This document shows positions 3,975 through 49,937 of a stretch of DNA of 64,000 nt, in pieces. Under the pieces are notes generated by a model. It ran no database searches. It was not told where the DNA came from and saw only the letters and a list, made by a program, of their open reading frames with translations. Made by a program: the position numbers and the translations under genes. The stretch covers positions 33,237,001 to 33,301,000 of the forward strand of contig NC_072807.1 in the NCBI RefSeq assembly GCF_028583425.1, written 5' to 3'. This DNA comes from Eublepharis macularius. Taxonomy: Eukaryota; Chordata; Lepidosauria; Squamata; Eublepharidae. Each line of letters begins with the position of its first letter. Position 1 is the first letter of the stretch.

Positions 3975-4680
3975 ACCTACTTGGGGAGGCCATGAAATGC
4001 CCCCCCCCAAGTGGGAGCAGTCTGAGCCTTGGTGGGGAGTGGGAGGAAGGGTGGGAGAAGGGCCCCAGAGGGCTGGGGGGCATTTTGCATGCAAAATGCC
4101 ACCCCTGGCAAGACAAGCCTTCCCCAGCTGTCAGTGGTAGAGAAAAGAGGACCTACTTGGGGAGGCCATGAAATGGCCCCCCCAAGTGGGAGCAGTCTGA
4201 GCCTGGGTGGGGGGTGGGGGGAAGGGTGGGAGAAGGGCCCCTGAGGGCTTGGGGGCATTTTGCATGCAAAATGCCACCCCTGGCAACACAAGCCTCCCCC
4301 AGCTGTCAGTGGTAGAGATGAGAGCAGAGCACCTACTTGGGGAGGCCATGAAATGCCCCCCCAAGTGGGAGCAGGCTGAGCCTTGGTGGGGGGTGGGAGG
4401 AGGGGTGGAAGAAGGGCCCCAGAGGGTTGGGGGGCATTTTGCATGCAAAATGCCACCCCTGGCAACACAAGCCTCCCCCAGCTGTCAGTGGTAGAGATTA
4501 GAGCACCTACTTGGGGAGGCCATGAAATGGCCCCCCCAAGTGGGAGCAGGCTGAGCCTTGGTGGGGGTGGGAGGAGGGGTGGGAGAAGGGCCCCTGAGGG
4601 CTGGGGGGCATTTTGCATGCAAAATGCCACCCCTGGCAAAGGAAGCCTGCCTCTTCATTTTTTCCCCATAGGAAATAATG
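3975..4680. repeat. Four tandem ~177-bp units, each with a 20-bp perfect palindrome
   Basis: Units begin at the motif ACCTACTTGGGGAGGCCATG near 3975, 4151, 4331 and 4505, spacings 176, 180 and 174 bp. Every unit contains the perfect palindrome GCATTTTGCATGCAAAATGC (4080-4099, 4255-4274, 4434-4453, 4608-4627). A diverged fifth relative of the unit start lies at about 4748, so the array looks like an internal expansion of a transposon segment. The long open frames across it on both strands follow from the unit length and base bias and are not taken as genes. Confidence 0.85.
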
Positions 4681-5078: not shown

Positions 5079-5260
5079 TACTCTCTACAGAGCCAGGGAG
5101 ATGGCTGCTTAGAGGGTTTGTTAATTTCCTCAAGGCTCTGGCAGTTTCACCTCCCCTTCTAGGAGGCAAAAAGGAAATTAACAAGCCCTCTGAGCAGCCA
5201 TCTCCCTGGCTCTGTAGAGAGGGGAAATTGACAGGGCCTTCCAATCTCTTTTAAAACTCA
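5079..5260. mobile_element. Hairpin element, related to the copies at 25634 and 45384
   Basis: Two arms (about 5079-5135 and 5165-5221) are close reverse complements reading CTCTACAGAGCCAGGGAGAT. The following text (gaaattgacagggcctt, then cttcccggctaacgttgcg) matches the interior of the DNA transposon at 25634-26603. It looks like an end-deleted copy of that family. Confidence 0.6.
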
Positions 5261-6380
5261 GCTTCCCGGCTAACGTTGCGGCTCCCTTCACCTGCTCCTC
5301 CTCGTGTGACTCGTCTCTTTAGCTCTTAGTTCTTGTCTGAGCACCTCTGTGGACCCCACCTCCTTAATTCTGCAAAGGAATGGAGTCTTCTTTGCTAGCT
5401 GCTGCTTTTAGCTGTTCTCATCTTCCTGGTTTGCTTTGTTGTGCAACCGCATGACGGGGCAGGGAGTGTCAGAATCTAGGCTGTTTGTCTGAAGTTATTC
5501 ATTAAACGGGGAGCTTACTGCATGTGCTGAGAAATGAAAGCGGAGATGACACCCGGGTTGATCCTGCCTCTAGAATCAAAACCGGAGCTCTCCTTGCTTG
5601 CCCAGCCCTATAAGGATTTTATTTGCTGGATGCAAAGGCCAAAGATTTTTGGCACGATTGAAAGGCTATGGAATGTGCAGAAAGAATGAGATTCCTCCTA
5701 TAAACTGCAGGGGTCTTCAGTCTGTTCTAGCTTGGTATTGATCACACAGTGAAAACCTGCATGATTGGCCCTGCTCAGGTGTTGTTAAAAAAAATGTTGG
5801 CTCAGTGGCACTCTGCAATGAATATGAAAAAGCGGCTCCATTATAGTTTACAACATGGTACCTGTGGGCACCATAGCATCCATGAATGTGGGGTCTGGAA
5901 TGGAACGTGGGGGACAGGGAGCTGGGGGATCATTCCCTATTGGCTGAATTACTAGACAAGTACTGAGTTCATTCCAGGCGGCGCATCACATCCATGTGCT
6001 CTCAGCTTGGCCCCTAGACCTGGCCTTCCTTATTTCTCTGGGCTTGGTAACTTCTGACTGCGACCCCTCACAGGAACCAAGCCCCCCCCCCTTTATTTTA
6101 AACCAAAGCCGCACTGAATCTCTTCCTGAAAGCAATGATCCAGAGGAAATGATTATTTTGGTCAGGCGATTTCCTTTCTGTTTAAAATTGTAGCGAACCT
6201 TCACCCGTTGGAACAGGCTATGGTACTTGAGGTGGGAACAGGCAGGGTCTCTTTGGGGAGGAAGGAATTTGTCTTTCTGCCCCTGGCCTCCCTGCATGCA
6301 CGCCCAGGTCTAGATTCTCCCTCGAAGGTATGGGTATTAAACCATCTCTGTTCCCCCACCCATCCCCCCTTCTCTTTCAG
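5261..6380. other. SCAMP2 intron 1, right part
   Basis: No gene, RNA or clear repeat recognised. The first SCAMP2 coding exon (expected to start MSAFDTNPF in vertebrates) was searched for by eye and not found, so it should lie left of the window. Confidence 0.5.
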
Positions 6381-9400: not shown

Positions 9401-12400
9401 GATCTTGGACCTTTAAAAAAAGTTTCTAGACCTCATGATTTTTAGGAGCAATTAGAAAAGCCAGTTTATATGGTCTCGTAAACTATTAGACTGTTGAAGG
9501 TGCTTAAGTGGTGGTTTCAGCCGTCTGTTCATTCAAGAATGCTTCTATTTCTTGTCGCATCCACCACACAGAATCTAGAATTGACATTTTTTTCCATTTT
9601 AGAGAAACACCCTCCCCCTTTGCTTTGCTGTCTTTCATTTTCTTCCTTCCCACGTAGGCTGCAGCCTCAGCTGCGCACGCTGGACTCCTTCGGCAGCAGG
9701 AGGAGCTGGAAAAGAAAGCTGCGGAGCTGGAGAGAAAGGAGCGTGAGCTGCAGAGCAGCGCGGCAGGCTTCGACCGTGAGTGGCGCCCCTTGCTGCTGCC
9801 CTGAGAGCCGGGCCAATGTCATCATGTCTTGTGTTAGGAGCAGGGGTAGCGAGCGCTTGAGTTCAAACCTGCCTATTGAAGCCCTTTTGGCTGGTAAACA
9901 GTTTGTGCGCTGTGACTCGCCAAATGGACCCGATCTTCATCCTGACATAGCAGGCCACCAAAGAACAGTCTTCAGTGGCACAATGGAAGTCCCTATTTCT
10001 CCTTGTGTGCACAGTGCCCCCCCCAACTTAATCATACATGTTTATCAATAGTTGTCAATCCGTATTTCTCCTGACAAAATTGGGACCCATGGCGAGTGAA
10101 GCAAAACCAATCAAAGAAACAGACAGAAAAACCCAAACAAGAAATTGCTCATCACAGGCAGGCTCAATGCAGAGCAGAGTAGCCAGCAAACAAAATCACT
10201 GCCAGAGCCCAAATAAATCCACAATATCTCCTGCGATATTCAACTGTCCATTTGGCCCCATAGATTGTTAATTACTAAGCCCCAAACATCCTCCTAAATA
10301 ATTCTGTCTTAACAGCTGTTCCGGAATGGGAGCCTTTTGTGCCTCTTCCAGAAGACTGTTCCACAGAAATGGGGGCAAGTCCCGAGCATGGCCAAGCATG
10401 GGCTGCAACAGAACGTACCCTGGGAAGAAGGGGAACAGAGAGGAAGATTTGCATAGATTGGAGCTGCCACACAGATTTGTGCAGGGAGAGGTGGTCTTAA
10501 GCAGGCTCTGGGTACTTTGGAATAGACTCTGTAGTTCCCCTCTCCTCCCCCATCTAAGCAGCAACAGCAGTTCCTGCACAGAAAACCTGCAAACTTTGCT
10601 GTATGCATCATGGGGTCTGCCTAGCATCTTGCTTGCCTTGGATGGTCAGCCTTGTAGCTTCAGACTACCGGATTTGACTTCCTCTGTGTATTTTAGGTTG
10701 TTGCAGAATGTGTGTGTTTTAAACTGTATCTTGGTCTCCTGTAGTTCAGGGTCATGTACTTTTCATCAAAATAACCATGCAAAACAATACCCAAGTTGTG
10801 TAAAAACATTACGGAGGTGGGATGCACTGCACGATAGCCTGAAGAGAAGGCCTCCGTGGACCTTTCTGGAGTCTTTTCTCTCCTCTCTCTCTGTCTGTAC
10901 AGCAAAACAGAACAATTGGCCCCCGCTCCCCAAGTTCTGTCCTATTAAGCCCTGCTTTTATCAGGACTTCTCTGCAGACATCCCTGCCGACTACCAGCGG
11001 ATTTGCAAGATGCTGTATTACCTGTGGATGTGTGAGTGAAAACTGTCCAGGGGTGGCTAAGGAACATTCTTCGGGAAAGCGACTTGAATATCCCCAGGCC
11101 TGATTGCGATCCTCGTAGAAGTCCCGAGATTGTTTTTAAATACTCATCTTTCTTTTCCAGCTGACACTGCTGGGGGTCGTGTTTCCAAGGAGGGGAATGA
11201 CATGAGGGAATGGGGGCTCTCAACTTTTCCCCCTCCTCCTCTTCCTGTTGTTCTCCTGCTTTAAAAACTCCGCCCTCCACGCTGTTTTCACCCTCACTGG
11301 GTTGCGGGTGGCATACGCAGGCTTCCTACAGGCACACATACCCCTGCCGTGCTTGATCCTCGCAACAACCTTGTGAGGAAGGTTAGACTTAGAGAGAAAA
11401 ACTGGGCAAAGGTCACCTGGGAAGGTTCACACCCAAGGGGGGATTTGAACCCGGGACTTGCCAGTTCTGGTCCAAGCATTGTAGCCGTCACCGGCTCTGC
11501 TCGTTTTGGCGGAGGGTGCATGGGGCCCTGTTTCCATCTGTCACTCTCCTCCCAAAGGCTTGTTCCAGAGGTCCTCAGTCCTTGCCTGCCTAACCACTCA
11601 CTCCTTCTTCTTCCCGAGCAGTTCACTCGTTCACACTGCTGCTCAACTTGCTTGCCTGCCTCTCTTGGTTCTCGGTGAGCGCAGACAGAGGCGTGGACTT
11701 CGGCCTCTCCATTCTGTGGCTCATTCTGTTCACCCCTTGCGCGTTCCTCTGTTGGTATCGGCCAATTTATAAGGCTTTCAGGTGCGTACCATGTCCTCGA
11801 TGGTGGGGTCGGGATGGAGGAAAATGTTCTTAGTTACACTTATGGGACCTTTTTTTAAAAAAGAAAAAATCCTTCAAGCATCGAGTTCACCTCTGCTTCT
11901 GTGTATCTGGCTCGTTAAAGGGTGATTTCCCACCCACCCTTATGGTCCCATGTTTCTTACGTCTGCAGCCTACCTGTCTGCCAAGGACCATTGAGCATTA
12001 TGTTAAACTCAACAACCCTGTGAGGTAGGCTAAGCTAAGACAGGGGAGGCTGCTCACAGCCACCTCTTGGGATTTCGTAGCTGGCAAGGTTTCGATCCTG
12101 TGTCAAACTCCAGTGTGCCGTTTACCGATTCCTAGATGACTCGGTTTGTTCCCTGCCCCCCGCCAAGCCAAAACAGCCCATGCAATGGCCTGTGATCAGA
12201 AGTAAATCCCTGTGGCATGTGTGTGTGTGCTCCTTGCGCCAGTGTCCTTGCTCCAATGCCATTGGCGTATTTTCAGATGAAGAAGCTGGAATCACTTGCG
12301 TATTTGGTTCTGCTAGTTTCTTCCATTGACAAGCTCTAAGCAATTATAAAGTGGGCGATGGGGTTTCATAGTCGGCTGCAGCCTTGGTCAGCATCCCTGT

Positions 12401-23300: not shown

Positions 23301-26300
23301 GAGAGGAGAATGATGCATTTTACACTGGCTGAAGGTGTGATATTAGTTAGTGGTACTTGAGAGAAAGAGAGAGAGAGATCCTATTTCTAGCTTCAGGTGG
23401 GTAGCCGTGTTGGTCTGTAATAGAAGAGCAAAATTTGGGTCCAGTAGCCAGGGCCGGTGTCAGGGCTTCAGAGGTGAGATACCTACTTGTGCCCCTTGCT
23501 CCATGCGCGCACGCGTAAGCGTGTGCACACTCCAGCCCTGCGCGATGACGTCACTTGTGACATCATTGTGCAGGAGCGTCCCCCTCATCTGAGGCGGGCG
23601 ACAGCAGTGAAGGGACAGGGAGGTGGCCTGCTTCCCCACTCGCTGCCGCGCCACTCACTGGGAGCTGAGCCGAGGCAGGCAGCAGTGGCTAAGGGGCAGA
23701 GAAGCAAGCGGGGACATGGCCCGTTTCTGGATCGGGGGGGTCATCGGGGGCCGGCACGGCGTCTCCTTCAGAGTTCAGCGCTCGAGGCGGCTGCCGGCAC
23801 CACCTCCATGGACGTGCCGGGCTTGCCAGTAGCACCTTAAAGACCAACTAGATCTCCAGGGTAGGAGCTTTAGAAACTTCGACTCTCTGATGCTGTCTCT
23901 GGCCACTCTGCCTGCCTTGCAGTGGGACAAAGAGCACATCTTCCTGATCATGGAGTTTTGTGCCGGAGGAGACTTGTCTCGCTTCATCCACGCCCGGAGG
24001 ATACTCCCCGAGAAGGTGGCTCGCATCTTCCTGCAGCAGCTGGGTAAGCAAGCGTGGTGCAATGGTTAGAGTGTCTGGCTAGGACCTGGGAGACCCGTTT
24101 TCGAATCCCCGCTCCGCCCTGGAAGCTCATGGTTGGGGGATGTTGGACCAGTTTGCTCTCTCTTGGCCTGGCCCCCCTTACAGGCTGGTGGTTGTGAGGA
24201 TAAAATGGAGGAGAGTGTTGTAAGCCGCTTTGGATCAGTGTTGGGGAGAAAAGAGGGGGTATAAGTATCTACATATATAAGCAGGGGATAGAGATAGTGG
24301 CTCAGTAGCAGAGTAGCAATCTCCAGGGGGGAAGAAATTTTTTTCTGGCAAGAACCACTGGACAGAACTGGGCATATATAAGGAGCAGGCCTTGTACCAC
24401 CCAATACAGAGTAAAACTTTGGTTCAGGCCTCATATCCTGTGTGTCTCTAGCTCGGCCTGTTGGCTGGGAAAGTACAGCCTCTGTTATTTAGCTGTACCT
24501 GGTCTGCTTTCTTCTCCCGAGAGAGTGGCCCTGGGAAGGCCAGCGCTTGGTGCTGATCTCAGCTCTTGCCGTACTCCCTAAACTTCCACAGGGCTGTGAT
24601 ATCCAACTAAGAAACGAGCCCTGACTGGTTCCTTGAGTGGGCTGAGGCCCCCTCCAGATTTCAAGAAGCCTCTCTGTTTCTAGGCAGTTTACCATGCCGT
24701 GCCAGTCTTGACCAGTCTTGCTATCTTGCAGCCATTGCCAACCACCTGCAATGTGAGAACAGAACTCCTGGGCTGTGTGCCCCCAGGATGCCTAGAGTGA
24801 GCTGGCATGAATGGTAAGACTAACCAGCTGCGGAAGCAACTCAGGGAATGCTTAGTCAGTCAGCCAGCTGGTAGTATTTTAGCCAGTTAGAACATATTTC
24901 GATTAGCAAGCCGTTGTTTGTTTTTGGCCGTGCCTAAATGCTTTTCTAAGAGCGGTTTCTGCCTTGCACGCGCTCCTATGGTCTTTCTGTAATAAATTTC
25001 AATATATATTTTACCAGCCTGTGTCCAGCATTGCTTGCTAAGGAGGTACACACACTCAAAAGAACCCAGGAAGCCAGAGTGCTTCAAAATAAACAACCAG
25101 AGGCTCCTAGGGAACCTGAGTGGCCAGGAGAGCCGTCGGGGACCGGGGATAAGAGTCTCTGAGTCGATACAGCATGATTGTTTAAAGTTTATTTTATTTA
25201 CAGTGAGTAGCCACCTCGGTCTGCAGTAGAAGAACAAGATTAGAGTCCAGTTGCACCTTAGGGACCAGCTAGATTTTCTGACAAAGAGAGCTCTGACTCT
25301 CGAAAGCTCGTATCCTTGAAATCTAGTTGGTCTCTAAGGTGCAACTGGAATCAAATCTTGCTATTTTACTTACGTTATTTATACTCCCCCTTTCTCACTG
25401 AGACTCAGGGCAGATTATGCAGTGTAAGTGTATACTATCAGCGACTGGAGCAATCAATTAACAATACAATAGGGCAGTCGATGGGTCGATTATCTGAGTC
25501 TTGCGACCGGGAAGCAAACAAACAGAATTAATTTGGAAATCTGAGACCATAATGCCTTTGCCGTTGGATTGATTGCAATGGAAAATGTTGGAAGGGCCCA
25601 CACAGAACTGATGTAGGAAAAGGCCAGAGCTGAGAGTCTCTCTACACGAGACATCTTACAGGAAGGGAGACACACTGTTAGCCGGGAAGCGTAGTTTAAA
25701 AAGACAGAGACAGAGATCGCTCCTCAGAGGGTTTGTTAATTACATCTTCATCTCTGGCAAGGCTCTGTCAATTTCACCTCCTCTTCCAAGAGGCAAAGAT
25801 GAAATTAATAAACCCTCTGAGGAGTGAAATTGACAGAGTAATTTATTATTACAGCACTTGGCCAGTACGTTAACCATAAAATTTAAGTGCACATTTTACA
25901 ACCATTTGAAACATGAAGCATATAAGTATATACAATTTAAAAACATAATTTCCTAATATCTATCAAAATTTGTAAAAACCAGGAAGTCAGCATAGTTCTA
26001 AGCAAGCAACTGAAATGGAGGCCTAGGCTCTAATGGGCTTTAACGACCAGAGCACAAAATTTCGCTATCTGGTGTAATACAGTAAAATCGGAGTTTGACA
26101 GCAGTTTCTCTAATTTTTTCTTATCCGAATGTTCAGAGATACCATCCAGAAAGGGAATAATAAATCTCATACGTGCTTCCTTATAGAAAGGGCATCTCAG
26201 GAAAACATGTTCCTGGGTTTCGACCTCCCCAAGTATGCAAGGACATAGTCTCTCATTCCAAGGAATCTTGTTAAATCTGCCATCCAGAACAGCAGAGGGT

Positions 26301-28846
26301 AAGGCAGAACATCTGGCCAAAGTAAGCGCTCTCCTGAGATTATTTACCTCCAGAATGGATAAATAAGAAGCAGGTGCAGAAATATATCTGTTACTAGGAG
26401 GAGCTATAAAAGCAGGAGTGCCTTGTAAGTCGGATTGTCGTTCAATATCATCTATCCTTTGCCTAACCATTTGCCTTGCTTGATCGCTTCCTGAAATTGA
26501 CAGATTCTCCGGCTCTGTCTTTTAAAAATATGCTTCCAGCTAACATTGCGTCTCCCTACACTTGACTGTCCTCAAGTAAGATATCTTGTGTAGACAGACT
26601 CTGAGTGGCTCATGCTTTACCTGAAAATCTAGAAGGATTTAAGGCAGGAAAGCTGTAGAAGACTCCTGCTGAGGTTTTGGTTAAAAAGGTCGCTGTGGGG
26701 GAGCAATGCCATGTGATCCCTGCCCTCAGCACCATTCCTCTTTCCCCAACCAGCTTGTGCCTTGAAATTCCTTCACGACAAGAACATCTCTCATTTGGAT
26801 CTCAAACCTCAGAATATCCTACTCAGCTCCCTGTACAAGCCTCACCTCAAACTGGCAGGTCAGTAAGATTTGGCGGCAGCGGCCGGGGTGGTGGTGGGGC
26901 TGGACAGAAGACTTAACATCTGCGTTGGTATTCTTTCACAGTTGCCCCACAGCCAGTTCTCTCTCTTCCTTCTTCTCAGCCTTGCACGGCACGCAGTATT
27001 TAGAAACAAACCTACTGGCCTTGTTCAGACATGACCCCAAACTGTCATTTATTTCAATCATTGTTTGTTTATGAAAATCAAAAAGAGTCCAGTAGCACCT
27101 TTAAGACTAACCAACTTTATTGTAGCATAAGCTTTCGAGAATCACAGCTCTCTTCGTCATGCATCTGACGAAGAGAACTGTGATTCTCGAAAGCTTATGC
27201 TACAATAAAGGTTGCTGGACTCTTTTTGATTTTGCTACTACAGACTAACACGGCTAACTCCTCTGGATCTGTGTTTGTTTATAGGATTCAGCTCATAGAA
27301 GATTCGTTGAATTCTAGTCTTCTCTAAAAAGTGTTAGTTTGACGCTTCCCCCAGTGGAGACCCGGCTGGTGTCCTGGAATTCCCTGCAGTGAGGGTTGCT
27401 CCAGGGAAGAAGTCAGGGTTAAACTAGGATAGCTGTGTTCATGCACCGCACAAAAGCATGGATTAAAGGTGGTAAATAAACCATTTTCTAACTGTGGTTT
27501 CATGCCCTTATTTGGTGGACCCTGAATATACACAATGCATCGAGACAACCTTTCCAAATCCTAGTTGGCTGAATTATGCTGTGGTTTCATAGGGGGTCTG
27601 AACCAAGCCAATAAAACAAAACAAAAACGCAGGTAAAAATGATAAAAGCAGCCCTAAAACTACCTTTATGAACTGACTTGTAACATGTTTCTTGGGCTTG
27701 GGGGCGGGGTCTGTTTTTCCTGCCAGATTTTGGATTTGCACAACACATGTCCCCGTGGGATGAGAAACACGTGCTCAGGGGTTCGCCGCTTTACATGGCT
27801 CCAGAGATGGTTTGCAGCCGGCAGTACGATGCCCGTGTGGACCTGTGGTCTGTGGGGGTGATTCTCTATGGTAAGTTGGACGAGATTTTCAGATGAGGGA
27901 AGAGGTGACTTCTAGAACCAGGGCTCATTTTGAGGGGGAACGCACAGGAATGCAGTTCCGGCAGTTCCCCAAAGAGGTCATGTATCAGGTGGCCCCGCCC
28001 ACCTGACTCTCGGCCATTTTGTGTCTGTTTCTGCCTGGATTGGGGCCGAAATGGCCCGGATCGGGCCTCTGACGGATGGTGGATCACTCTCCCACTCAGC
28101 AGCAGCCTGATCCTGACCATTTTGGACCTCTTCTCAGCCATTTTCAGCCCCTTTTTGCCATTTCGGGCCCAATTTTGGCCCTGAATGGCCAGGATTGGGT
28201 CCAAAACAGCCAGAATAGGTGATGTCAGGAGGTGTGACATATGCAAATCAATTATGCCAATGATACACTTCCAGTGATGGCAAGGGGTGTGGCATATGCT
28301 AATGAGTTATGCTAATGAGTTCCTCCAGCTCTTTTTCTAGGAAATGACCCCTGTCTAGAACTCTATGCTCCAAAGGCAATTGAGGCAGAAAGGTTTTTTT
28401 TCTCCAAAATGGCCTTTTTTCCTTTTGAGGATAGAGAAGTTCATTTGACATTTTGGGGCATTGACTGGGACACCCAGCTCTCCTATATGGCAGAGATCAG
28501 AATTAAAATGCCGCGGCCCTGTTATACTAGCAAACCCTTTCCCCATGGTGACTGTTGCTAAACATTAGGGTGGTGAGAATTCAACACGGAGGTACTGGTT
28601 GTTACAGCTTGTGTAAGGTGCCTTCCCATCTTCTAAGAGCACAGTATTGTGTAGTGGTTAAGGTGTCAGACTAGGATCTGGGAGACCCAGTTGGACTCGC
28701 CACTCTGCCATGAAAACTCACTGGGTGATCTTGAGCCAGCCAGTCATTCTCAGCCTAACCTACCTTACAGGGTTGTTGTGAAGATAAAACAGAGGAGAAT
28801 GATAAATGCTGCTTTGGGGAGAAAGGCAGGGTAGAAATTAAGCAAA

Positions 28847-28877
<31 letters not shown>

Positions 28878-31800
28878 GAGTCTTAACGTGGAGCTTTCTC
28901 TCCCAACCAAGAGGCCCTGTTTGGGAGACCCCCGTTTGCTTCCAAGTCGTTCGCTGAGCTGGAGGACAAGATCCGCAGCAATCAGCCGATCGAGGTAACC
29001 TTAAAGCGGCCGGGATGCTGGCCGAGGCTTCATTTTGACACTGGAGTTGATGGTTGCGGGAGCTGCCACCTAGTTTGGGCCTGTAGCTCAGCCCCCTGTC
29101 CCCGTCCTCTCATTGCCAGCTCCCCAGCCGCCCGCGGCTCTCTTCGGAGTGCCGGGACCTTCTGCAGCGCCTCCTGAAGAGGGACCCCCAGGAGCGCATC
29201 TCCTTCAAGGAGTTCTTCTCTCACCCCTTCGTCGACATGGAGCACATGCCTAGTGCCGAAAGTCTGGACAAAGCAGTGAGTGGTGATGTTACTGGAGGAA
29301 AGGTTACCCCGTTGACCTCTCCTAGTGCGTAAATTGTCTTTCTGATGGTGTCTGTCTACCTGTGGAGGGTTTGGTGGGTTGGGTACCCTTCTGTTCAAAG
29401 AGCAGACGGAAGCAAATCAAAGGACATGTTCTACTTCAGGAGTTAGGTAGAAGCAGGGTTTTTTTTCAGCAGGAACGCGGGGGAACGGAGTTCTGGAACC
29501 TCTTGAAAATGGTCATATGGCTGGTGGCCCCGCCCCCTGATCTCCAGACAGAGGGGAGTTTAGATTGCCCTCCGCGTGAGGGCAATCTCAACTCCCCTCT
29601 GTCTGGAGATCAGGGGGTGGGGCCACCAGCCATGTGACCATTTTCTCCGAGGGCAACCCACTGAGTTCCGCCACCTCTTTCCCCAGAAAAAAAGCCCTGG
29701 GTAGAAGTAACACCGTCCCCATCTCCCAGTGCTGGCCTTGCTTTGGCCTGCGCCCTCTCCAGCCTTCTCTTCCCTTCACAGACCTCACTTGTAACAGAAG
29801 CCGTGAAGAAGGACCAAGATGGGGATTTTTCAGCCGCCCTCTCACTCTATTCCAAGGCCCTGGAGTACTTTGTCCCTGCCCTGCGCTGTGAGTAGCCATG
29901 CCACCATTTTCTCTTTCCAACTGCTCTTCTCCTACAGAGTAAGTAGAAAAACCCGTGGAAGCTCTAGAGCGGATCAAATGGCAGCAGTTTGCCCTCTAGA
30001 AGCACTTCTGTGGTATAGGTGAGTCATGGGTGACTCCACTTTCTCTTTCTAGAGTCATTTTGGTTGTGGTTTGTTCTACTCTTATTGAAGCAATGGTGGA
30101 AATTTTCAAGATTTCAAAGCCGTGTTTTGGCTGTGGCTCCAACAGCTAATGGCCATTGAAAATCAATGTCAAAACTAACCTGTAAATGTGCAGACTGCTT
30201 TCAAAAGACCCATCTGAGAACAGGCCTTCAACATTCGTGGACGCATGTACTCTCTCCCCTCACCATGGCATTTGATATCTAAGCTAGTATTACTATTAAG
30301 AGACTTTATCAAAAATATACAGTTTAAATAGTGATGTAGAGAATGGATATATTAGTGGATTTGATAGAGTATATATAAGAGAATTTGAATATGCTTAGAG
30401 TAAGAGATATAATACATATATGATTTAGAAGAATTTAATGGAAAATAAGTAATAAGATAGGTTAAGGGTTGGAAAGCTGTTGGAAGTCTATAAGGAGGGG
30501 GGAGGGAAAGGGTGGGGGTTGAAATAAATTAGGTATGATGGGGAATGTATGTAATAACTATGTTCTCACCAATAAAAAAAATTTTTTAAAAAAAAAACCA
30601 TGGCGTTTGATATCTTCATGGCATGCAACAAACTGTATCTCGTTGCAATGTTTGAATCAGGGCAAATGTCAAACTGTGGTTTGGTTTTTTGCCTATAAAG
30701 CAGGATTCCAAATCGCCATTTAATCTTGCTTTCAGAGGCAAGAGAATAAGCTACAGTTTGTCATTTTGTCTGGTCTGGGCATCACAGCTACAGAGAAGGC
30801 CCCCGTTTAAATTTTGCTTGAACCGACAGGTCTCTTATTTCTTTGTGCCATCTTCTGTTTCCTTGTGCCCATTTTTTCCCATTAAACTTACACAGTCTGT
30901 AAGATTGCGTTCTTGTAAGTAGCATAAAAATGGAGTCAAAGAAACAAACAGATTGGAAGCACCAGCAACAAAAATGAGCAGCACCGAAAGGCTCACGTTG
31001 AAAACTCCCCCAAAGAAACTAATTAGCATATTCATACATTCTGGCTGTAAAAAATCAAAACCAGTTAACTGAGCTAAGAAATGAAAAAGCCTTCCTACCT
31101 GCAGTGGACGGGCCTACGATGATTTTAGACCTGTTATAATGTTTTTATATCTGTTCATTTTTAAAAAATTTTTATTGGATGGATACATATATAATTACAA
31201 AAATTCATCGTTAATTTCTACATTATAAAATATCTTAATTAACATCAATAAACTACCCTACATTTACCCACCCCCTCCCTGACCCCTTTATTCTGATTGA
31301 CTTCCAGCAGCTTTTGACATCCCCCTAGTCCTAATATCGTTCTCCCTTCTAATTCTTAACATATAACTCATTATACTTTCTATTAACTCTATTTAATAAT
31401 TCTTACCCAATTGTCCATCTATAAGTAAAGACATTTACTATTCTTAACAACTCAAATATTTTCAAAAGACCACAACTTCCCCCTTAAATCCCAATTCTTC
31501 TCTAAGTAGTTTTTAAATTTCTCCCAGACCCCCCAAAAGTCCTTTGGTTGTTCCTCCTTCAAACATCTCGTCAGCTTGTCCATTTCCACCATCGCAAGAA
31601 CTTTCTGAATCCAGTCTTCCATTTTAGGTGTCTCTTCTTTCTTCCAATACTGTGCATAAATTATTCTGGCTGCTGTTACCATATAAAATATCATTATTCT
31701 ATCTTTACAATCATACTTCTCTAAATTCAAACATAGCAATAACATTTCTGGATTTTGATTGATCTTTTTCTGTAAAATCTCTACATTATCTCTACAATTT

Positions 31801-34800
31801 TTGCCCAATAAGCCTTAGCTTTATCACAAGTCCACCACATATGATAAAATGAACCCTCATGTTGTTTACATGTCCAGCACTTATCTGACATTTGATTATT
31901 ACTAAACGCTAACTTTTTTGGAGTTAAATACCATCTATACATCATTTTATATATATTTTCTCTCACTCCAGTGCATGCAGATATTTTTACTGTACTCTTC
32001 CAGAGATATTCCCACACCTCCATCGTAATTTCCCTGTTACAATTTGTTGCCCATTTGATCATTTGAAGGAATAAATAAATCTCTCTCTTGTTTCTCTCAG
32101 ATGAAGTTGATGCTCGCAGGAAGGAGGCCATCAGAGCCAAGGTCAGTCTATATTTACTGGGAGGGGTGGGATTGGCATGAGCAAGAAAGTGTTTGGAGCT
32201 GGGAATTCTGGAAAGGGCACAATCCCTTTGGCAGGTACAGGCAAGATGGAACTGGCAGACGTGCACAAAGCATGAAACGTGCTTCTTTGCCACTTTGGTG
32301 AACATCTCAATACTCCAAATGGTTCAGTTTGAACATCATATTCATTCATTCATTCCCCGTCTTTATCGCACTCTGCTAACTGCGGTTGGTCTGTCAAGTT
32401 GGCTTATTAATCACTTTACAGATTAACCCCTTACTGATGTCAGTTAATTTTCTTAGTACTTCAGACTGCTTCTTCCTGGAATATTTGTTTATCCGACTCA
32501 ATTACATTTTTGTTTCTCTGAACCCCCCGAGAGCAAGGCTAGAATATCTAACCTCTCTCATCATCCATTATATGGAATTTCCTAATTTGATCCAGTCCTT
32601 TACCCAGAGGATCACACCTGATTTACACCAAGCCTCTCTCAGCGCCCAACTCCTCCCTTTCCCCCCTAAGGTAAAGGTAGTCCCCTGTGCAAGCACCGAG
32701 TCATTACTGACCCATGGGGGGTGGGGTGTCACATCACGACATGTTCTTGGCAGACTTTTTGTTACGGGGTGGTTTGCCATTGCCTTCCCCAGTCATCTAC
32801 ACTTTACCCCCAGGAAACTGGGTACTCATTTTACTGACCTCAGAAGGATGGCTGAGTCAACCTTGAGCTGGCTAACTGAACCCGGCTTCCGCCAGGATCG
32901 AACTCAGGTCATGAGCAGAGCTTTGGCTGCAGTACTGCCGCTTACCACTCTGCGCCACAGGACTCCTTCCCTTTTCCCCCTAGCCTTTTGAAATTTTCCT
33001 TAATGCATGGAAATGATTTCCTCTTTGTAGCATCTGAAGAAGTGAGTCCTGTTACACAAAAGCTCAGGCTGCTGTTAGTCTTTAAGGTGCCACTGGACTC
33101 CTGTTTTATTTTGCTACAACAGGCTATCAAGGCTACCCCTCTGGAATTATTAACCACTGTCAGACTTAGCTCTGATGTGGTGTGCTACATAAATGCAGAC
33201 ATTCTAGCTGGTTCATTGGGACTGCCCTTCCCAGACCCAGAACAAAGGTGGCTGTGAGCTGAATCCTCATTTCACAAACTAACTGCGGTTTAAAATAAAC
33301 CATGGTTTTGCATGACGTCTAAACTGGCCATGTTAGGTATTGGTGACTTTCTCTTTGGGTCAATGGCTGTGGCCCTAACAAATCATGCCTGTTGCACCTG
33401 CCATGTTCAAAATTGAGCAGTGAAACCTAGTTTGAAATCCTGCTCCGTTTATGCCCGTCTCCAAATGCAAGGAAGCACCCTACTATATCAAACCAAAAGT
33501 CCGCCTGGTCCAGCATCCCTATTTCTTACAATGGCCAGCCCAAATGCTTCTGGAAAGCACATAAGCTGTGCATGAAGGCAAGTGCCCAGCCTCCCTCCCT
33601 GCCACCCGAAACTGGTATTCTGAGGTATACTGCCTTTGCTCATGGAAGCTTTGTTTGACTATCATGGATAATAGCCCCAGTTCAGCTCTCTGCTCCATAA
33701 ATTTTCCTAATCCTTTAAAAAAAAATTGCCACATCTTGTGGCAATGAGTTCCATTAGCTAATAACTTGCCATGCAAATAGATGCTTTCTTTTGCCTGTCC
33801 TACAAATAGTTGGTGAATTGTGGGTGACCTAGTGTCCTGGCAGCGATTCTGAGCTTTCGTTTTGCCTTGTTTCCCGTGGCTTAGGTGAGCCAATACATCT
33901 CGCGAGCGGAGCAACTGAAAGTCATGGTCACGTCCAATAACAAAACTCTCCTGCAACAGGGCCGCCCTGCAAGGGACATCCTGAAAGGTAAACTCCAAGG
34001 GGGGGAGCTTAGTTGCAGCCCAAACCACCTAGCTGTCCGCAGTCCTTCAAAGGCTAACGTTGGTCAAAAACTCCCTAGAGGAGTAGCCTTGTTAAATCTG
34101 TTGCAGGAAAACAAAAACGAAGTCCAGCGGCAGCTGAAAACCGAACAGTGTTTAGGACAGCATAAGCTTCCATGTGTCACTTCCTCAGATGCTAAAAACT
34201 CCCTGCAAGTAGTGGAGCAAGCAAAAGGGGAGAGGTATAGACTTTCTTCCTGCTGTGCTAGTTTAATGATTGGCATGGGATTTTTTTTTTATATAAAGAG
34301 ACATTCGCAGCTAGAATCCACCCACCTGCATTCTGGACTGGGAAGGGGCCTGTGGCTTTGCATGCAGAAGGTAAAAGGATCAGGGACTAAGTGATGAGAA
34401 GGATGGGGAGAGAGCTGCCACCCATCAGAGTAGACAGTACTGACCTTGATAGACCAAGGATCCAACTTGATAGAAGGCAGCTTCATTTAGGAAGAGGCTG
34501 TGGCACAGCGGTAGAGCATCTGCCTTGTGTCCAGAAGTTCCCAAGTCTGATCTGCAGTTTGGTAGTTCCCAGATTTTTTTTCCCATGGAGAAACCCTATA
34601 ATTAATTTTTCGAAGAAACCCCTATCTATGATGACATCAACAGGTGAGAAAAAGTTGATGGTGGAGAATTGTGAGCCACTTTGGGTCCCTGTCGGGGAAA
34701 AAAGTGGGTTGCAAATATCTGTATCAATCTGTCAATCAGTTCTGTTTTGCAGCAACTTTAGGGAAGGGCGAAAGCAGATTTCTCTACCATGAGCTGGAGG

Positions 34801-37800
34801 CAAGCAGAGGAGGTTAAAGGCTGGCCTATGCATCCTCCAAGATTATTTGCTGTTATAGTTGACTCAAGCCATAGGGTTTATTGCTCTGTAAGCTTTCACT
34901 GGTTAAAGACTGCATCATCATATAAATGAAATTATCCTCCTCTGGCAGACACATGGATGCTGAGGACTAAGCAGTAAACCGTCCAAAGACTACAAGAGAA
35001 GCAGTCTGATTTATTCGTTTGTTTTTGCAAACGTCCGTCATGTACCAATACTTCCGGACAGCAATAATTGACAGTAATGTTGCCTTCTGGCCACCAGGGG
35101 GTGCAGATCCACGGCAATTATCTCCGGAGGTCCAAACCCGATTGAGGATTTTATTTATTTTTTTGTTTACATTATTTATAGTCTGCCTTTCTCACTCAGG
35201 CTCAAGGCAGATTACACAGTGTGTAATCTGTACAGCCAGTACAGTCAATTTCAAAGACATTTCAATACGCATGTAATAGGGTATATACATGCAAATTTGC
35301 AAAGATTTAAGGCTAGGAGAAATCCAAGACAGGGCGGAAGAAACGCTGAAACAGAACAAAAGCAATTCTAAGCCTGACATATTAAACAACATAGGAACTA
35401 CTCAGTAGGATCATACTTCTAACAATAGTAGTAGAGTCTATGATTGTCATACTTACAGAAATGGTAAAATATTTGTGTGTCTGTGTCATATTTACTGTGA
35501 TAGCAGCCCCCGCCACCCACATCTGTATGTTCCTTTCCCAAACAAGCACTGGTTTTTCTTTCCCCTGCCTGGCTGAGTTGGGGTCCAAGAAGCATCCTAT
35601 TTCCCATGACTCGCACAAAAGTTGCGTGTTTACGATTGCATGCTGTCGCAATCTCTGCCAGGTTGCACAACCCTAGAAGATTCTGCTACTGTCGTTCCCA
35701 CAGTTGCTCTTGCATTTGTTGCCAAAGAAAAATAGAATTGGCATGTCCTCAGTTTAATGATGGTGCTATCGGGTCCCCCGGTGTGGATTGGAGCACTGGA
35801 ACGACAGACATCGGTGCTGAACTCTGCCTCGAATAAGACACGTGGATCTTATCCGTGTGTCTTTCTCTTTCTTCCTTAGAGAAAATGAGTTGTGAATCCT
35901 TTGCTTGCTGGCTCATGCTTATTTTCATTTCGTTCCAGAAATGTCAAAGAATAAGCCTCGTCTTTATGCGGCGTTGGAAGTGGCGGATGCTGCTGTGGCG
36001 AAGGTGAGCCACGGGGGGCGGGAACGGCAATCACAGGCATGTGTCCAACCATCCATGCACGTCCTCGAGTGGGATTTTCCTGCTTCCCCCTTCCTGCTGC
36101 AGCGCTCAGGAATTTCATTCCCAGGGGGTCAGTGGCCCCTGTGGAACAGCACAGGGGACAAAGAAAGGGTCTCCACTGGGGGACAGCAATTGACACAAAT
36201 CGCCATGTGTTTTCCACAAATGGAATGCCGTTTTTGCATCCAGACACTTTCAGGTATAATCATAACTGGTTCCCGAGCGTCTGAAGTTGGGGAAAGGCCT
36301 CCTGGCTCCGAAGTCCTGACGGAAACTTCGGCACCTTTTTTTGTTTTGTTTCCCAAGTCTGGCAATGCTTGAATTTCCACACTGGAGCCAGGAATTTGTG
36401 CTGGGTGGGGGCAGGGATGTAAGGACTTTCTGTCCCTGCCTGCTGCTTCTGGGAAGGAGCTATTTCTAATCTCATCCCATCTGGTCCTTTCCTCCACGTG
36501 CATCTTGCTTGGTCGCATTCTGTGCAACTCCATCGCTGGAAGAAGCACTTCTGTTCTTGGCTGTGCCGGAACTTTTCTCTGTCTGTGTTCTAGGAGGAGG
36601 AAGGCGGCGATGATGGGGAGACGCTCGACTTGTATCAGCAGAGCCTGGGGGAACTCTTGCTCATGTTAGCAGGTAAGGGGCAACGTGCCCAGGGAGACCA
36701 GGCAGGGCTGGCTGGAGGATCTTCCTGAACGGGCTGGTCAATGGATACTGTGGACAGATCGCGGCAGCCGGACATCTCCCTCTTGGCTTCTTTGTGAGTT
36801 TCCTGTCTGGTGGCTGTGAAAAGATAAACTGTTGGGCTTGCTGCGCTTTTTGGTTTGGTGTGCCAAAATTAGTGTTGCCAACCTCCAGGTCAGCGCCGGA
36901 GTTGTGCCGGAATTTACAGCTGATTTCCAGAGATGAGTTCCCCTGGAGGAAATAGATCCAGAGGAGTTACCCGTGTTAGTCTGTAGTTGCAAAATAGTAA
37001 ACAGTCCTTTAAGACTAACTCACTTTATTGTAGCATAAGCTTTCGAGAACCACAGCTCTCTTCGTCAGATGAAGAGAGCTGTGGTTCTCGAAAGCTTATG
37101 CTACAATGAAGTGGGTTAGTCTTAAAGGTGCTACTGGACTCTTTGCTATCCTGGAGGAGATGGCAGCTTTGGAGGGTGTAGTCTATGGTATCACACTCCT
37201 GCTGAGCTACCTCCCCCCCCGGCCCGGTTGAAGGAATTGCCCAACCCAGAGTTGGCAACCTTACACGCCATATTAATTCCTTCTGTCTAATGCTTTTGTT
37301 TTTTGTCTCCAGCTGAGCCCACAGGGAGAAGACGGGAGTTGCTGCATGCAGAGGTATGGGCCCGATTTGTCTCTGGAACTGAGCCTGGGGGCTGGCTGGA
37401 AATGTGTCAGCTTACAAAATGGCAATATTCTTAGTTTAAATGTGATTGACAGTTGAACGGGCTTGAAAACCAAAAACCAATATCGCTCTTTTTAAATAAG
37501 AGCTGTTGAAATCATTAGCCACCCTTCTCCCCGTTCCTGAAACCTATGTTTTGTCTTTTTGCCTTATAGGCTTGGTAATCTTTCCCACCCTACCTTCCAG
37601 ACTGTTTTCTCCTGAACAGATGCAAATGACGGCTCTTTTTGTATTTGCAGATTCAGACTCTGATGGGACGAGCCGAATACCTAAAAGAGCAGATAAAGGT
37701 ACGGAAGAACAGACTTGAGGAGGGCATGTGGCACTCGGGCACTGCATCGTGCGGCCTTCAAATTAAGGCAAAGGGTGGCTGGCTTGTGGAACTCAATGCC

Positions 37801-40800
37801 ACAAGATGTGGAGCCGGCAGATGGCTTGGGTGGCTATAAAACAGGGTTGGGCCAATTTATGGAGGATCAGTCTATGGCTGGCTGTAGGCAATGATAGCTC
37901 AATTGGATCTCCTGGGGTTAGAAAGAATGCCTCTGATTGTCTAATTCTGAGGTGCTGTCAGCAGAGGAGGGCTGTGGCCTGTGGCTGTGGTCTGTGCGGA
38001 CTTCCCTGTGGTATCTGACTATCCCCTGTTGGAAACAAGCTACTGGATTGGATGGACTATTGTTCTGGTCCCAGCATGGCTGCTCATGTGTTCTTATGTA
38101 TGTGCCTGGATATTGTCTGAGATAATGGGGAAAGGGGCATCGGTTTAGGGCCTGACGAAGGAGAGGGGACAGGTATATTTCACTGAGGCCCAAAGGGACT
38201 GGTGGGGCTGGTTCTGAGCTACAGGCCTCTTAGCATGATGTGATCGGTTTTTGTCATCTCAGAAGTAAAACAGGGAGAGGTGTCTCTTGTGGCTCGTGAA
38301 TGGGATTGTTATAACAGATTATCACTCTCCTCCTAGTCGGACCTGGAGGGTCCTGCCTCACAGGGTTGGTTTTTGATGGTTCAGATTTTCCTGAGAATCT
38401 TTATTTTTCTTGATGGGGGAGTTGGAATAAAGATGCTCCCAAGTCCCCTTCAATCTTGTCTCATAAGGTGGCAGCTTCATCAACTGTTTTTAAGTTTTTT
38501 TGTCCCTCGGGAAGCATCTTAATTCTGTGGGAACTTGTTGGTAGGACTGCTCTAATCCTATCCGTTGGTTTCAGTTCTTCGAAAACAGTCACTTTGCTTC
38601 CCTCGACCCGTCGATTTAAGGCTGTATCTAAACGACATCCTAATTGTGAATACGTTTCTCCCGGCTTTCTCTTTCTCACAGAAAGCCTTTCTACTTCGTT
38701 TGTCAGACCAAAATGAATCGTGACCGTCTCTTTAAATCTGATAATCTGAGATTTCTTCATTCCTCATTTTGATGCAGATTTCACTAAGACCTCCACGTAT
38801 TTGTGGGCGCAAATTAAGCATTCTAGCGTCATCAGGAATCTGCAGATCTTTACATGTTCTCTCAGAACTAAACAGAAAAGGATGCTTGGGCTCTGGTTTA
38901 GCTGGGATGGGGAAATAATTAGATAATGGCAAAAAAACTGAGATATTACAGAGTGGTAGGTGAGCCCCTCAAGTTCCCTGTAGGATGGAGGACAGGAGCA
39001 TTCAGCCAAGGGTCCAAAGGTGATCAAGCAATGACCTGTCCCTCTTTCTCTCCCAGATGAAGGAGTCTCAATGGGAAGCCGAGGACAAGGAGGGCCTGTC
39101 GGACTCCGTGCGGACCTGTGAGTGCAAAGCTCGGCGTGAGCAATTTTCTGTCCCGTTGGCCTTTTGCACAAATGTGTAGGATACAGACAGGTGGATCTCA
39201 GACTTGCCAGGAAACTTCTGGGAGGGCCTTTGGTGGCTGGGAGCTAGCTGAGCCGAGCCCTGGCGGCGTCCGCTGTGCCTCAGGGCCTGCTGAGCTCAGA
39301 CCAGGAGAGTATCAGTGGGAGAGGGTGTTGAGTAAACCCCTTGTGGTCATCGCTCCTTGCTGGGTCTGAGCTGGGGGGTCCTGACGGGAATTGCTCCTTG
39401 GCCATTTGAACAGTCCGGTCCACCCCCAGGTTGCTCAAGCTTCTTCCTAGGAGTGTTTTCTTGAACCCGTTCTGAATATTCCTCCTCGTCCTTCTCAGTC
39501 AGAGGACTGTCAACATTACCTAATGCTTTTCGCCATCCTCTTACCTCCCTGGGTGAGGGCTCTTAAGATCCGCTGCTGCCGCTGCTAAAGGGAGAGAACA
39601 GGCGAGCGAGTGGCAGGTGCCAGTCTGAGCAGTAGCAGCGGCTCACTTGCCTGGGCGAGCAAATGAAGAAAAAAAAAAGCAAGGCTGGCTGCAGCTGCCA
39701 TTCGGGTGCCCACGACTTCAGATGGCTGCACTTGGGCATCTTCTTGCTCGAGGGCTCCCCCGAACCTGGAACCAGCCCTGATGCTGCCAATGCCGACATG
39801 CTCTTCTTGTCGGAAGGAAATTAGGTCAGCCGCAGCTGTTGTGTGCATGTGCAAATAATATTCATGCTAAGCCTCTCTGAGTGTCAGCTCCGTTTGGGCA
39901 AGCACGAGTCCCTGGTAAAGAGAGAACAAAGGAATCCCCCCTTGGAATAGCAGTGCTTCTTTGGGGGGTGGGGAAGGGTGGCCAACAGCAACACAGCTCT
40001 ATGGAAGGGAGAAACCCCTGTTGTAGTAGGGGTAATGAGGGACGTGTGGGGTATTCAGGGTGACACAGCCCGCCCCCTTCTGAAAGCGGGGTTGATGGTG
40101 TGGGGAGAGGTGGTGAACATCTTGTTGTCGGAGGGGCAAGAGGCCTTTGTTGTGTGTTGCGTACAGCTTGAGAGATTCCCCAGGCAGCTCCTTTTTGCCT
40201 TTGGCTGGTTAATTGCAATAATCTGCCATGTGGGCCCTCCTTTGCGGCCCTGGGAAGCAGAGGGGGGTGGGTGGGAAGGAGCAAGAATCCACTAGGCGAA
40301 CCAGCTGCTTCTGCTCGAATGGTAAGAAAGGGCTGAGAGACGTCCGTACGCTTGACAGATCACAGGGAGAAACCTTGCTGGGATTTATGTGGGACCGTGG
40401 AGGCAAGCAGGTGTCCGAAAGGGCCAAAATAGCACAGTAGCCCCATTAAGACTAACCAACTTTATGGTAGCGTAAACTTTCATGAACCACAGCTCTCTTC
40501 GTCAGCTGCATCTGACGAAGAGAGCTGTGGTTCTCGAAAGCTTACGCTACAATTAAGTTGGTTGGTCTTAAAGGGGCTACTGGACTCTTTGCTATTTTGC
40601 AACTACAGACTAACATGGCTAACTCCTCCGAAAGGGCCAAGAAATGCATCCCTTTGACATAACTTGTTCTGACTTGATGTCGTCCTGGAAGTGGTTGGGG
40701 GAGGGGGAGCGCTCACATAGAAAGGGTGTTTGTAGCATGATTCCGGCACCAAAATCCCACTGTCTGTACTTCTGTTATTGACAGCACTTTTCTAGTCGGG

Positions 40801-43414: not shown

Positions 43415-43584
43415 ATCCAGAGGAGTTAGCCGTGTTAGTCTGTAGCAGCAAAATCAAAAAGAGTCCAGTAGTACCTTTAAGACTAACCAATTTTATTGTA
43501 GCATAAGCTTTCGAGAATCAAGTTCTCTTCGTCAGATGCCTGATCAGTGAGAACTTGATTCTCGAAAGCTTATGCTACAATAAA
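43415..43584. mobile_element. Hairpin retroelement with hammerhead-like core (copy D)
   Basis: Perfect 15-bp duplication ATAAACTAGCCATAG (43400-43414, 43585-43599). Terminal atccagaggagttagccgtg on the left; palindrome around 43545; the arm reads gagaacttgattctcgaaag then cttatgctacaataaa. Confidence 0.88.
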
Positions 43585-45383: not shown

Positions 45384-45687
45384 AGAGTCTCTCTACACAA
45401 GACATCTTGCACGAGAATGCTCCAGTATGGAGAGATGCCGTGTTAGCCAGGAAGTGTAGTTTAAAAAGAGAGAGCAGAAGGCAAGGCTCTGTCAATTTCA
45501 CCTCTCCACAGAGCTGTGCAAGAACCTTCTGGAAGGGGAGGTGAAATTGACACAGCCTTCCCAAAGTGATCTTTGCCAGCTCTGTACAGAGGTGAAATTG
45601 ACAGAGCCTTTGGCTCTGTCCTTAAACTATGCTTCCTGGCTAGCATTGCGCCTCCCTCTTCTTGAGTGTTCTCATGTAGAGACTTCT
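45384..45687. mobile_element. DNA transposon of the 25634 family
   Basis: Left end AGAGTCTCTCTACACAAGAC; right end reversed AGAAGTCTCTACATGAGAAC. Interior arms gaggtgaaattgacacagcc and its reverse. Confidence 0.7.
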
Positions 45688-47190: not shown

Positions 47191-47597
47191 CCCATAGCAC
47201 TGGAAAACAAAATTGTAAGATGCTCTGAGTCCTCATTGGGAAGAAAAGTGGGTATAAAGAAATATAAACAACCCTATGCAGAGTTACTCCAGTCTAACCC
47301 AATGGATTTAAACGAATTTAAACTGGAATACTTCTGTTTAGGATTGTGCCGAAAGCCCAACAATCCCCCCCTCCCCGGCTACTTAGGTTCCTTCTGTCTT
47401 GACGAGCTGCTAAGTAGGCAAAAATTCGAAAGATCATGCTGGTTCCTATCCTGACGACACCCTTTTGGGGAAATTGACGCCTGTCGGATTGGTCTCTGGC
47501 TGCTCTTAAATGCGCAAGAGCTGTGCCATGAAAAGAAAGATCGGCAACCTCTGTAAAGCGGAAGGAGAAGTCACGCAGCTCCTGGAAGTCAACACTC

Positions 47598-47801
47598 AGG
47601 GCCAAACTACAAGTGACACCTGACACAGGTTGGACACTTGTTAGCATCCCTCAAGTTTTGATGGGAAATGTAGGCATCCTGGTCTTGCAGCTGTAATGGA
47701 GAGCCAAGCTGTAAAACCAGGACGCCTACATTTCCCATCAAAACTTGAGGGAAGCTGACAAGTGTCCAACCTGTGTCAGGCGTCACTTGTAGCTTGGCCC
47801 T
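47598..47801. mobile_element. Hairpin MITE, AGGGCCAAGCTAC-type ends (copy 1)
   Basis: Almost the whole 204 bp folds on itself: AGGGCCAAACTACAAGTGAC on the left returns as gtcacttgtagcttggccct on the right; the arms include tttcccatcaaaacttgagg. Confidence 0.8.
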
Positions 47802-47924
47802 TAGTGCAGCTTAAGGTGCATTCTGTGTATTTCTTAATTTCTAAAATAAAAAACGATGGAGCTAGAAGTCTGGTAACAGCATCTTTTGACCCAGAAACAG
47901 AGGTGGACTTGAAGAATTTGCTCT

Positions 47925-48035
47925 GAAGAAGGGAGCCCTGATTCTCGAAAGCTTACACTCTGAAAATCTTGTTGGTCTCTCAAGTGCCACTGGACTCAAA
48001 TCCTGCTCTTCTATTGCAGACCAAGAGGGCTACCT
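47925..48035 (+). mobile_element. Hairpin-family relative, 3' half
   Basis: CTGAAGAAGGGAGC, ttctcgaaagcttacactct, tggtctctcaagtgccactg, gctcttctattgcagaccaa. No inverted arm. Confidence 0.6.
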
Positions 48036-49200: not shown

Positions 49201-49647
49201 AGAAAGTACTGCCAAGGCTGTCTCTTGCCACATAGCCCTACCCACCAAGCCTTGGCTCTAGCCTTCTGCCACTGCTTTTAGCTGTTGGGAGCCAGCGTTG
49301 ATTCATTTCTGGTCTTGTGGCAATTGCTCCCAAAGGTGCTGCATGGCTGTGAGCAAATGCAGTTAAGCGGCTGTTTTGAGAAAGGGATATTTTTCTGCAT
49401 ATCAGGGGTGGGGGATAAAGGGTCTGTCCTCAGTTGAGCGGGCATATATTTGCAGTGATTCATGTGTCTGCAAGGGGCGTTCTGTATTCAAAGATAAACC
49501 TGCTTTCCTGAAATGCAAATCATTCAACTAGTATTCGGTTTTTGCCAGATGGCTCCCCTGCTGTGAGAAAATCTGGGCCTTAAGAGAATGGAACTGATCG
49601 AGATAAGTTGAAAGTCCATCCAATGTGGATGGTGCTTAGGGAATCTC

Positions 49648-49851
49648 AGAGCCAAGCTACAAGTGACGCCTTACACAGGTTGGACACTTGTCAGCTTCCC
49701 TCAAGTTTTGATGGGAAATGTAGGCGTCCTGGTTTTACAGCTTGGCTCTCCATTACAGCTGCAAGACCAGGATGCCTACATTTCCCATCAAAACTTGAGG
49801 GATGCTAACAAGTGTCCAACCTGTGTCAGGCGTCACTTGTAGCTTGGCTCT
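49648..49851. mobile_element. Hairpin MITE, AGAGCCAAGCTAC-type ends (copy 2)
   Basis: Arms agagccaagctacaagtgac and gtcacttgtagcttggctct; close relative of 47598-47801, with the loop in the opposite orientation. Confidence 0.82.
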
Positions 49852-49937
49852 CAGTGCCCATATTCCAGCAGGTCGCTCTGTTATTCAGCTGCACCCCAAA
49901 CCTTTCATTACTTCAATGTGCCCTGTAAGCAAGACTT

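Follow-up and report, generated by a model that had tools for sequence, protein, structure and literature searches.

The palindromic repeats in a 64,000-nt stretch of the Eublepharis macularius genome (hereafter the window) are short insertions of a Penelope-like element (PLE) carrying a hammerhead-type motif, in which two inverted copies of one unit are placed head to head with their 5' ends facing inward. The unit, the terminal piece of the PLE, measures about 130 nt and has a TATA-like motif approximately 31 nt upstream of its start; by comparison with the Anolis element, PLE reverse transcription would start at its far end. The palindromes are not a new element type, and the reading that we favour, with a probability of roughly 0.6, is that reverse transcription is primed from each strand of a staggered cut, with two neighbouring start sites in use, and that the cDNA ends are then joined. 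PLE insertion is little understood (PMC11167929), and for the frequent inversion of PLE copies PMC3846280 offers a guess, self-priming on an antisense template; the many young copies of a single genome allow the models to be separated by counting, and the counts favour the joining of two cDNAs.

Five head-to-head palindromes and a divergent one occur in the window, all in the places where a preliminary description had put them, and the target duplications that it reported flank them to the base. The palindrome at 27073-27271, with the short arm on the left and the tailed arm on the right (sense +), is enclosed by an 11-bp duplication (27062-27072/27272-27282) and its junction (27152-27173) reads CTTCGTCA-TGCATC-TGACGAAG; the one at 36951-37149 has the tailed arm on the left (sense -), a long arm without 9 nt and a 9-bp duplication (36942-36950/37150-37158). 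The tailed arm is on the right (sense +) both at 40428-40626, flanked by 14 bp (40414-40427/40627-40640), and at 55538-55752, flanked by 7 bp (55531-55537/55753-55759). The palindrome at 43415-43584 belongs to a second subfamily and has its tailed arm on the left, a 15-bp duplication (43400-43414/43585-43599) and, at the junction, TGATCAGGCATCTG, which is also found upstream of the unit at locus L054. The divergent head-to-head palindrome (25202-25361) is a member of a related family, flanked by 12 bp with one mismatch (25190-25201/25362-25373), and the hammerhead head is present in its right arm and missing from the left, longer one. The window also includes a unit without inverted partner on the minus strand (62902-62990), beginning with TGCATCTGACG, and two diverged units on the plus strand, one of a related family (33030-33137; nhmmer 4.5e-15) and one of the GAAAGCTTACAC family (47922-48035).

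The link to Penelope elements, already suggested in the preliminary description, is supported by the position of the unit next to a PLE endonuclease frame. At L054 a GIY-YIG endonuclease frame (5466-5921) is followed, after a gap of about 0.3 kb, by the unit (6235-6354), and a GIY-YIG match of the same strand precedes, according to the coordinates, the unit head at C1:46712152 by about 0.4 kb; these two are the only links between unit and open reading frame. Among 30 GIY-YIG loci there is one strong unit match, at L036, which coincides with L054, and L020 (2.5e-7) and L009 (4.6e-5) each have a weak one. Frames encoding both reverse transcriptase (RT) and GIY-YIG, as expected for a PLE, are present in the genome, and the open frame of the unit, read by eye, is without ATG. 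In the window itself, a PLE RT-endonuclease-like open frame of 515 aa with no internal stop (895-2439, minus strand) shows 52-54% identity over 509-512 aa to the RT plus GIY-YIG frames of L055, L056 and L057, 50% to that of L060 and 46% to those of L058 and L059; only the RT domain is called by Pfam (RVT_1, 4e-9), GIY-YIG not being called at E up to 1, and no unit match adjoins the frame. Inverted repeats at 2471-3723 adjoin it.

Upstream of the unit, copies L098 and L102 share a stretch in which TAAATAT or TATATAT precedes ATGCATCTGACG by about 31 nt; part of this stretch accompanies 1076 heads genome-wide, some of them also in inverted pairs with a wider spacing. ATGCAT is therefore not the sole RNA 5' end, although from the sequences we infer that the element RNA often starts there. 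Among the first 100 of these 1076 promoter-bearing heads, compared by eye with the GIY-YIG matches listed for C1, none has a near neighbour.

The two arms of a palindrome differ in a regular manner. The analysis included 55 palindromes, i.e., the five of the window, leaving out the divergent copy at 25202, and all 50 distinct places among the first 100 matches listed for the exact-arm pattern described below, all on one chromosome. Exactly one arm carries a tail of about 37 nt in 52 of the 55, neither arm is tailed in three (L064, L073, L085) and both arms are tailed in none, approximately 12 two-tailed palindromes being expected under independence. The tailed arm ends at positions 123-130 of the 130-nt unit in 52/55, and the short arm ends at 80-101 in 46/55 and earlier in the other nine. 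This difference of about 37 nt between the arms matches the 30-40 bp tail that PMC11167929 traced to two adjacent start sites of reverse transcription. Duplications of 6-16 bp were found in the flanks of 41/55 palindromes, with a mode at 13 bp and 11-14 bp in 29 of the 41; they are not due to chance, since 37 of the 55 reach at least 9 bp and none of 2970 mismatched flank pairings does. A target duplication of variable length and an inverted terminal pLTR with an optional tail of about 30-40 bp, the latter seen in these 52 palindromes and in five of the nine long inserts considered below, are both features of PLEs.

The same data bear on a foldback or MITE-type DNA transposon, which the palindromic form and the presence of other MITE-looking palindromic repeats in the window might recall. 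Matching terminal inverted repeats with a duplication of fixed length are not found in the palindromes, whose two outer ends differ (tail or none) and whose duplications range from 6 to 16 bp; as the unit, in addition, adjoins a PLE endonuclease frame, such an origin has a negligible likelihood, and retrotransposition rather than a transposase, as first proposed on the basis of the variable duplications, is sustained by both the duplication lengths and the unequal ends. Other palindromic repeats of the window include two near-perfect ones of another family (GAAAATGGTC...GACCATTTTC) at 29505-29645 and 51368-51522, with similar flanks around both; two MITE-like ones of about 210 bp at 47593-47806 and 49645-49854, of a further family (CTCAGAGCCAAGCTACAAGTGACG...); and imperfect ones at 5081-5221, 25717-25827, 45483-45610 and 62130-62300, the first three having a GTGAAATTGACAGAGCC-like sequence in common.

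The head-to-head form is abundant in the genome. A pattern of ten exact bases on each side of the joint (exact-arm pattern) occurs at 1353 places in 2.24 Gb, compared with none for a reversed-letter control, and a 44-base stretch of the unit has 4728 exact copies. Ten unit loci were examined from the first 12 of these 44-base matches listed, two neighbouring rows of the same strand being skipped: seven are head-to-head by alignment, two have upstream sequence and one is a tandem. The figure of 1353 is thus an undercount, because none of the ten fits the exact pattern in spite of the seven that are palindromic by alignment. Of the first 100 exact heads listed, 12 lie beside an exact-pattern palindrome, so that the share of unit copies that are palindromic can be given only roughly and no precise fraction is claimed. 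In a sister family (CTGAAGAAG...ATGC, 1040 exact matches), close minus-plus, that is head-to-head, neighbours are also seen among the matches listed.

The hammerhead-type motif of the unit is a minimal one and, in the first palindrome, occupies 27161-27200 on the plus strand: GCAT (stem I, 5' side), CTGACGA followed by A, stem II (GAGAA/TTCTC), GAAA and GCTT, the predicted cut, and ATGC (stem I, 3' side). The proposal of a hammerhead-type core holds as regards the letters, since CTGACGA, one extra A after A9, a stem and GAAA are present in the unit copies of the window and stem I covaries, but the stems had been misassigned. Stem I is formed by the GCAT just before CTGA, paired with the ATGC after GAAAGCTT; this ATGC had been attributed to a GC-TTAT-GC mini-stem, which is unable to pair in the GTGT/ACAC sister family. 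In the CTGAAGAAG background the genome-wide counts are 1040 for GCAT/ATGC and 270 for GTGT/ACAC versus 13 for GTGT/ATGC and 20 for GCAT/ACAC, i.e., 1310 covarying matches against 33 mixed ones, counted as copies in related families that represent few independent events. Stem I and stem II are both included in the predicted minimum-energy fold of the unit, and one pair of stem II, as read off the copies, is G-C in the ACAC family versus A-U or G-U. Compensatory changes had been anticipated in stems II and III; those counted are in stem I (GCAT/ATGC versus GTGT/ACAC), and stem III is essentially absent, only AGCU lying between GAA and the cut. The earlier assignment of a stem III with a cut after TAC is disfavoured by the stem I covariation and by the free energy, and the cut is predicted between GCTT and ATGC.

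AGCU is self-complementary and, as an idea, might pair as stem III between two molecules; when two units were cofolded, the best dimer was a different one, with no AGCU helix. Hammerhead variants that cleave as dimers were reportedly described by Lunse and co-workers in 2017; the missing helix III of the unit agrees with them, and the difference is that an AGCU intermolecular helix is not the best predicted dimer here. It also agrees with PMC6155905, according to which PLE hammerheads are usually minimal, with helix III missing; they share with the unit the CUGANGA-stem II-GAAA core, stem I and a near-absent stem III with the self-complementary AGCU, and the unit copies of the window differ in the extra A after A9. 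The core in the unit is judged real from its sequence, and the motif is probably of the usual minimal PLE type. The search with covariance models indicated in the preliminary description reported no Rfam hammerhead family: nothing reached the gathering threshold in the whole window, no hammerhead appeared between 20000 and 60000 at E up to 10, where the 30 other matches were mostly to miRNA models and many lay on palindromes, and nothing was found in 62900-63000 or 60560-60760. Inverted ends of 76 bp (98.7%) at 60313-60830 surround a second hammerhead-like motif at 60642 (plus strand), CCTGACGAAGGACCATTTCTGAAACGAGCC, with no Rfam match.

Retrozymes are non-autonomous retroelements with hammerheads, a description which the palindromes share, and the motif with its covariation could suggest that ribozyme-processed RNA circles or cleaved RNA act as the insertion template. 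There is no sign here of cleaved RNA in this role: 28 palindromes in the genome have the cut region at their centre, compared with 1353 that have the head there, the two patterns not being equally strict (14 and 10 exact bases a side, respectively), and none of the 28 has a blunt joint at the predicted cut, 12 being joined exactly at AAGCTT, itself a palindrome. Cleaved RNA is consequently not the usual template, in agreement with the mutation of the hammerhead in PMC11167929, which leaves insertion in vitro unchanged, and a retrozyme-like route appears highly improbable. The 28 palindromes inside the unit are either early stops joined there or later deletions.

The source of the arms was examined in the 42 palindromes with both arms usable, 13 with short or odd arms being dropped. 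Partner arms differ by 3.8%, versus 7.1% for non-partners (minimum 6.1% in 2000 permutations), and long arms differ from each other by 7.0%, no closer than long from short ones, so that long and short arms are not distinct classes. After removal of diagnostic and CpG columns, partners share 12 non-majority states within subfamilies against a null mean of 2.6 (p 2e-4). The individual signal is modest, the own partner being nearest or tied in only 18/42. Taken together, the partner distances and the shared private variants indicate that both arms derive from one source and that the palindrome is not inherited as such. The palindromes had been presented as a family of "hairpin retroelements"; they do not look like an independent family, and the arm distances point to a hairpin made at insertion from a non-palindromic unit.

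These distances bear on the notion of a palindromic master, a source that is itself palindromic and is transcribed and inserted whole in the manner of a SINE. The uniform size, the subfamily variants common to the arms and the recurrence of joints, 19 of the 53 parsed being identical and four other strings also recurring, are what such a source would give; but it predicts that long arms are nearest to long arms, against the 3.8% observed for the own partner and 7.0% between long arms, and arm-specific variants common to many copies were not seen. In the second subfamily, moreover, nine of the ten junctions could be parsed and all nine differ. A palindromic master is therefore very improbable.

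The junctions are variable, with 30 distinct strings among the 53 parsed: the perfect CAGATGCATCTG junction accounts for 19, all outside the second subfamily, TGCATC recurs three times and three other strings twice each. When the 19 perfect junctions, six explained by one substitution and two unparsed ones are excluded, 28 irregular junctions are left, in which, by hand tally, the more complete head belongs to the tailed arm in 10, to the short arm in 10 (L064 and L095 being doubtful) and to neither in eight; some of them could be later deletions at the palindrome centre. This tally is relevant to self-priming, the explanation published in PMC3846280, by which one cDNA, or an antisense RNA, folds back and copies itself into an inverted repeat. 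Palindromic joints and source variants common to both arms would result from such a process, and ATGCAT could give a tight fold-back. A copied arm, however, cannot hold head sequence missing from its template, as it would have to do in the 10 of 28 cases (eight clear) with a more complete short arm, and self-priming does not explain why the second arm should end at the proximal start site.

Long copies provide a further comparison. A search with the endonuclease frame of L054 gave 24305 candidates, the best 150 of which show an identity of no less than 97% in every case and include open frames of 934-936 aa. With this number of candidates and several frames over 930 aa, the PLE family looks young and large. 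The best 150 of the 24305 include 34 head-to-head pairs within 10 kb, no tail-to-tail pair and four same-strand pairs. For 28 of these 34 pairs the open frames together account for the whole span (ratio 0.90-1.04), so that the copies seem to meet 5' end to 5' end. If frame length is taken to stand for the point of truncation, the two partners are unequal by 30 aa or more in 25/34 pairs and lie within 30 aa of each other in nine. Sequence-level data on long copies come from other PLE families of this genome only: at L055 the arms are 99.4% identical over 2.28 kb and separated by 19 nt, and one head extends 767 nt beyond the other. From the long inserts, nine whose ends are inverted were chosen by eye, leaving out L025, L029 and L054 with separated inverted matches; in five of them a duplication of 11-15 bp is accompanied by 32-48 additional nt on a single arm, and no convincing duplication was found in the other four (two with none, one with chance-level 8-mers and one reaching the end of the locus).

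The unequal frames of the 25 long pairs and the 767-nt difference between the L055 heads again speak against self-priming, which, owing to these pairs together with the junctions with a more complete short arm, we consider rather unlikely; the unequal arm heads argue in this sense against the explanation given in PMC3846280. Another alternative is that the two copies were inserted independently, one after the other, with the later insertion favouring the 5' end of the earlier one; AT-rich sites are preferred by PLEs, and PLE sequence may itself be a target (PMC11167929, PMC3846280). This alternative is contradicted by the single duplication that flanks the whole pair, by the presence of exactly one tail per pair, by the private variants common to the arms and by the 34 head-to-head versus 0 tail-to-tail long pairs among the best 150 of 24305 matches, and its probability is low.

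According to the two-cDNA reading, the PLE ribonucleoprotein would make a cut in each DNA strand, the two cuts being offset by about 13 bp, and each 3' end would prime reverse transcription on PLE RNA, the distal start site giving the arm with the tail of about 37 nt and the proximal one the arm without it. As both cDNAs grow they would approach the 5' end of the RNA, and a head-to-head joint would then link their 3' ends. Two cDNAs that had run to the 5' end of the RNA would often give an exact joint, since each would terminate in the self-complementary ATGCAT, while a cDNA that stops early would lead to the joining of two copies with different truncation points. Insertion does not appear to use cleaved RNA. 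What the sequences themselves show is the architecture, the one-tail rule, the common source of the arms, the variation of junctions from copy to copy and the head-to-head arrangement of long copies; the enzymology, the RNA 5' end and the use of one RNA or of two RNAs of one source are what we infer from them. In a more specific form, to which we assign slightly better than even odds, a dimeric complex would prime both strands of one cut, using each start site once, and the first-strand cDNAs would be joined with no conventional second-strand step, the AUGCAU ends sealing the joint. The purified Anolis PLE protein, modelled as a dimer, cleaves and extends both strands, and its two adjacent internal start sites are separated by the "tail" (PMC11167929). 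From this in vitro work, in which the start sites did not differ between strands, one would not obviously expect so strict a one-tail asymmetry. If the mechanism is true, the inverted PLE termini of other animals would be footprints of one process.

Among known systems, the accessible text of PMC3846280 describes head-to-head inverted pLTR pairs in the Penelope elements of Adineta vaga, the typical structure being described as occurring also in fruit flies and fish, with palindromes at the joint as found here; the optional 31-bp tail on one terminus and the inverted terminus shorter by 37 bp resemble the one-tailed pairs, and the target duplications are of 8-10 bp, in contrast to those centred on 13 bp in E. 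macularius. The pairs described here are, by comparison, bare, with nothing between the arms, and number at least 1353 by the exact pattern. Poseidon from Anolis carolinensis (PAc) is similar in its pair of adjacent internal start sites separated by a tail, its terminal minimal hammerhead, its cleavage and extension of two strands and its AT-rich targets (PMC11167929); that study dealt with reactions in vitro, and its main text is silent on inverted pairs, the sole occurrence of "inverted" being a 3' inverted dT. The preliminary description had regarded both the head-to-head form and its abundance as new: the form, with a tail on one of the inverted termini, was already known from PMC3846280, and the abundance of bare pairs appears to be new. 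In the literature searched, largely without subscription papers, no statement of two-sided priming in PLEs was found, and as far as this literature shows what is new is the large number of bare pairs, the one-tail rule with its counts, the common origin of both arms and the two-sided-priming reading.

Other features of the window are a minisatellite with units of about 175 bp (4002-4651), which overlaps minus-strand open frames, and a weak 5S rRNA-like match on the plus strand (54599-54717; 31.6 bits against a gathering threshold of 38), perhaps a 5S-derived SINE. An open frame at 10302-11036 (plus strand) contains the start of a SCAMP domain (Pfam 5e-12), from which the window probably holds an exon of a host gene.
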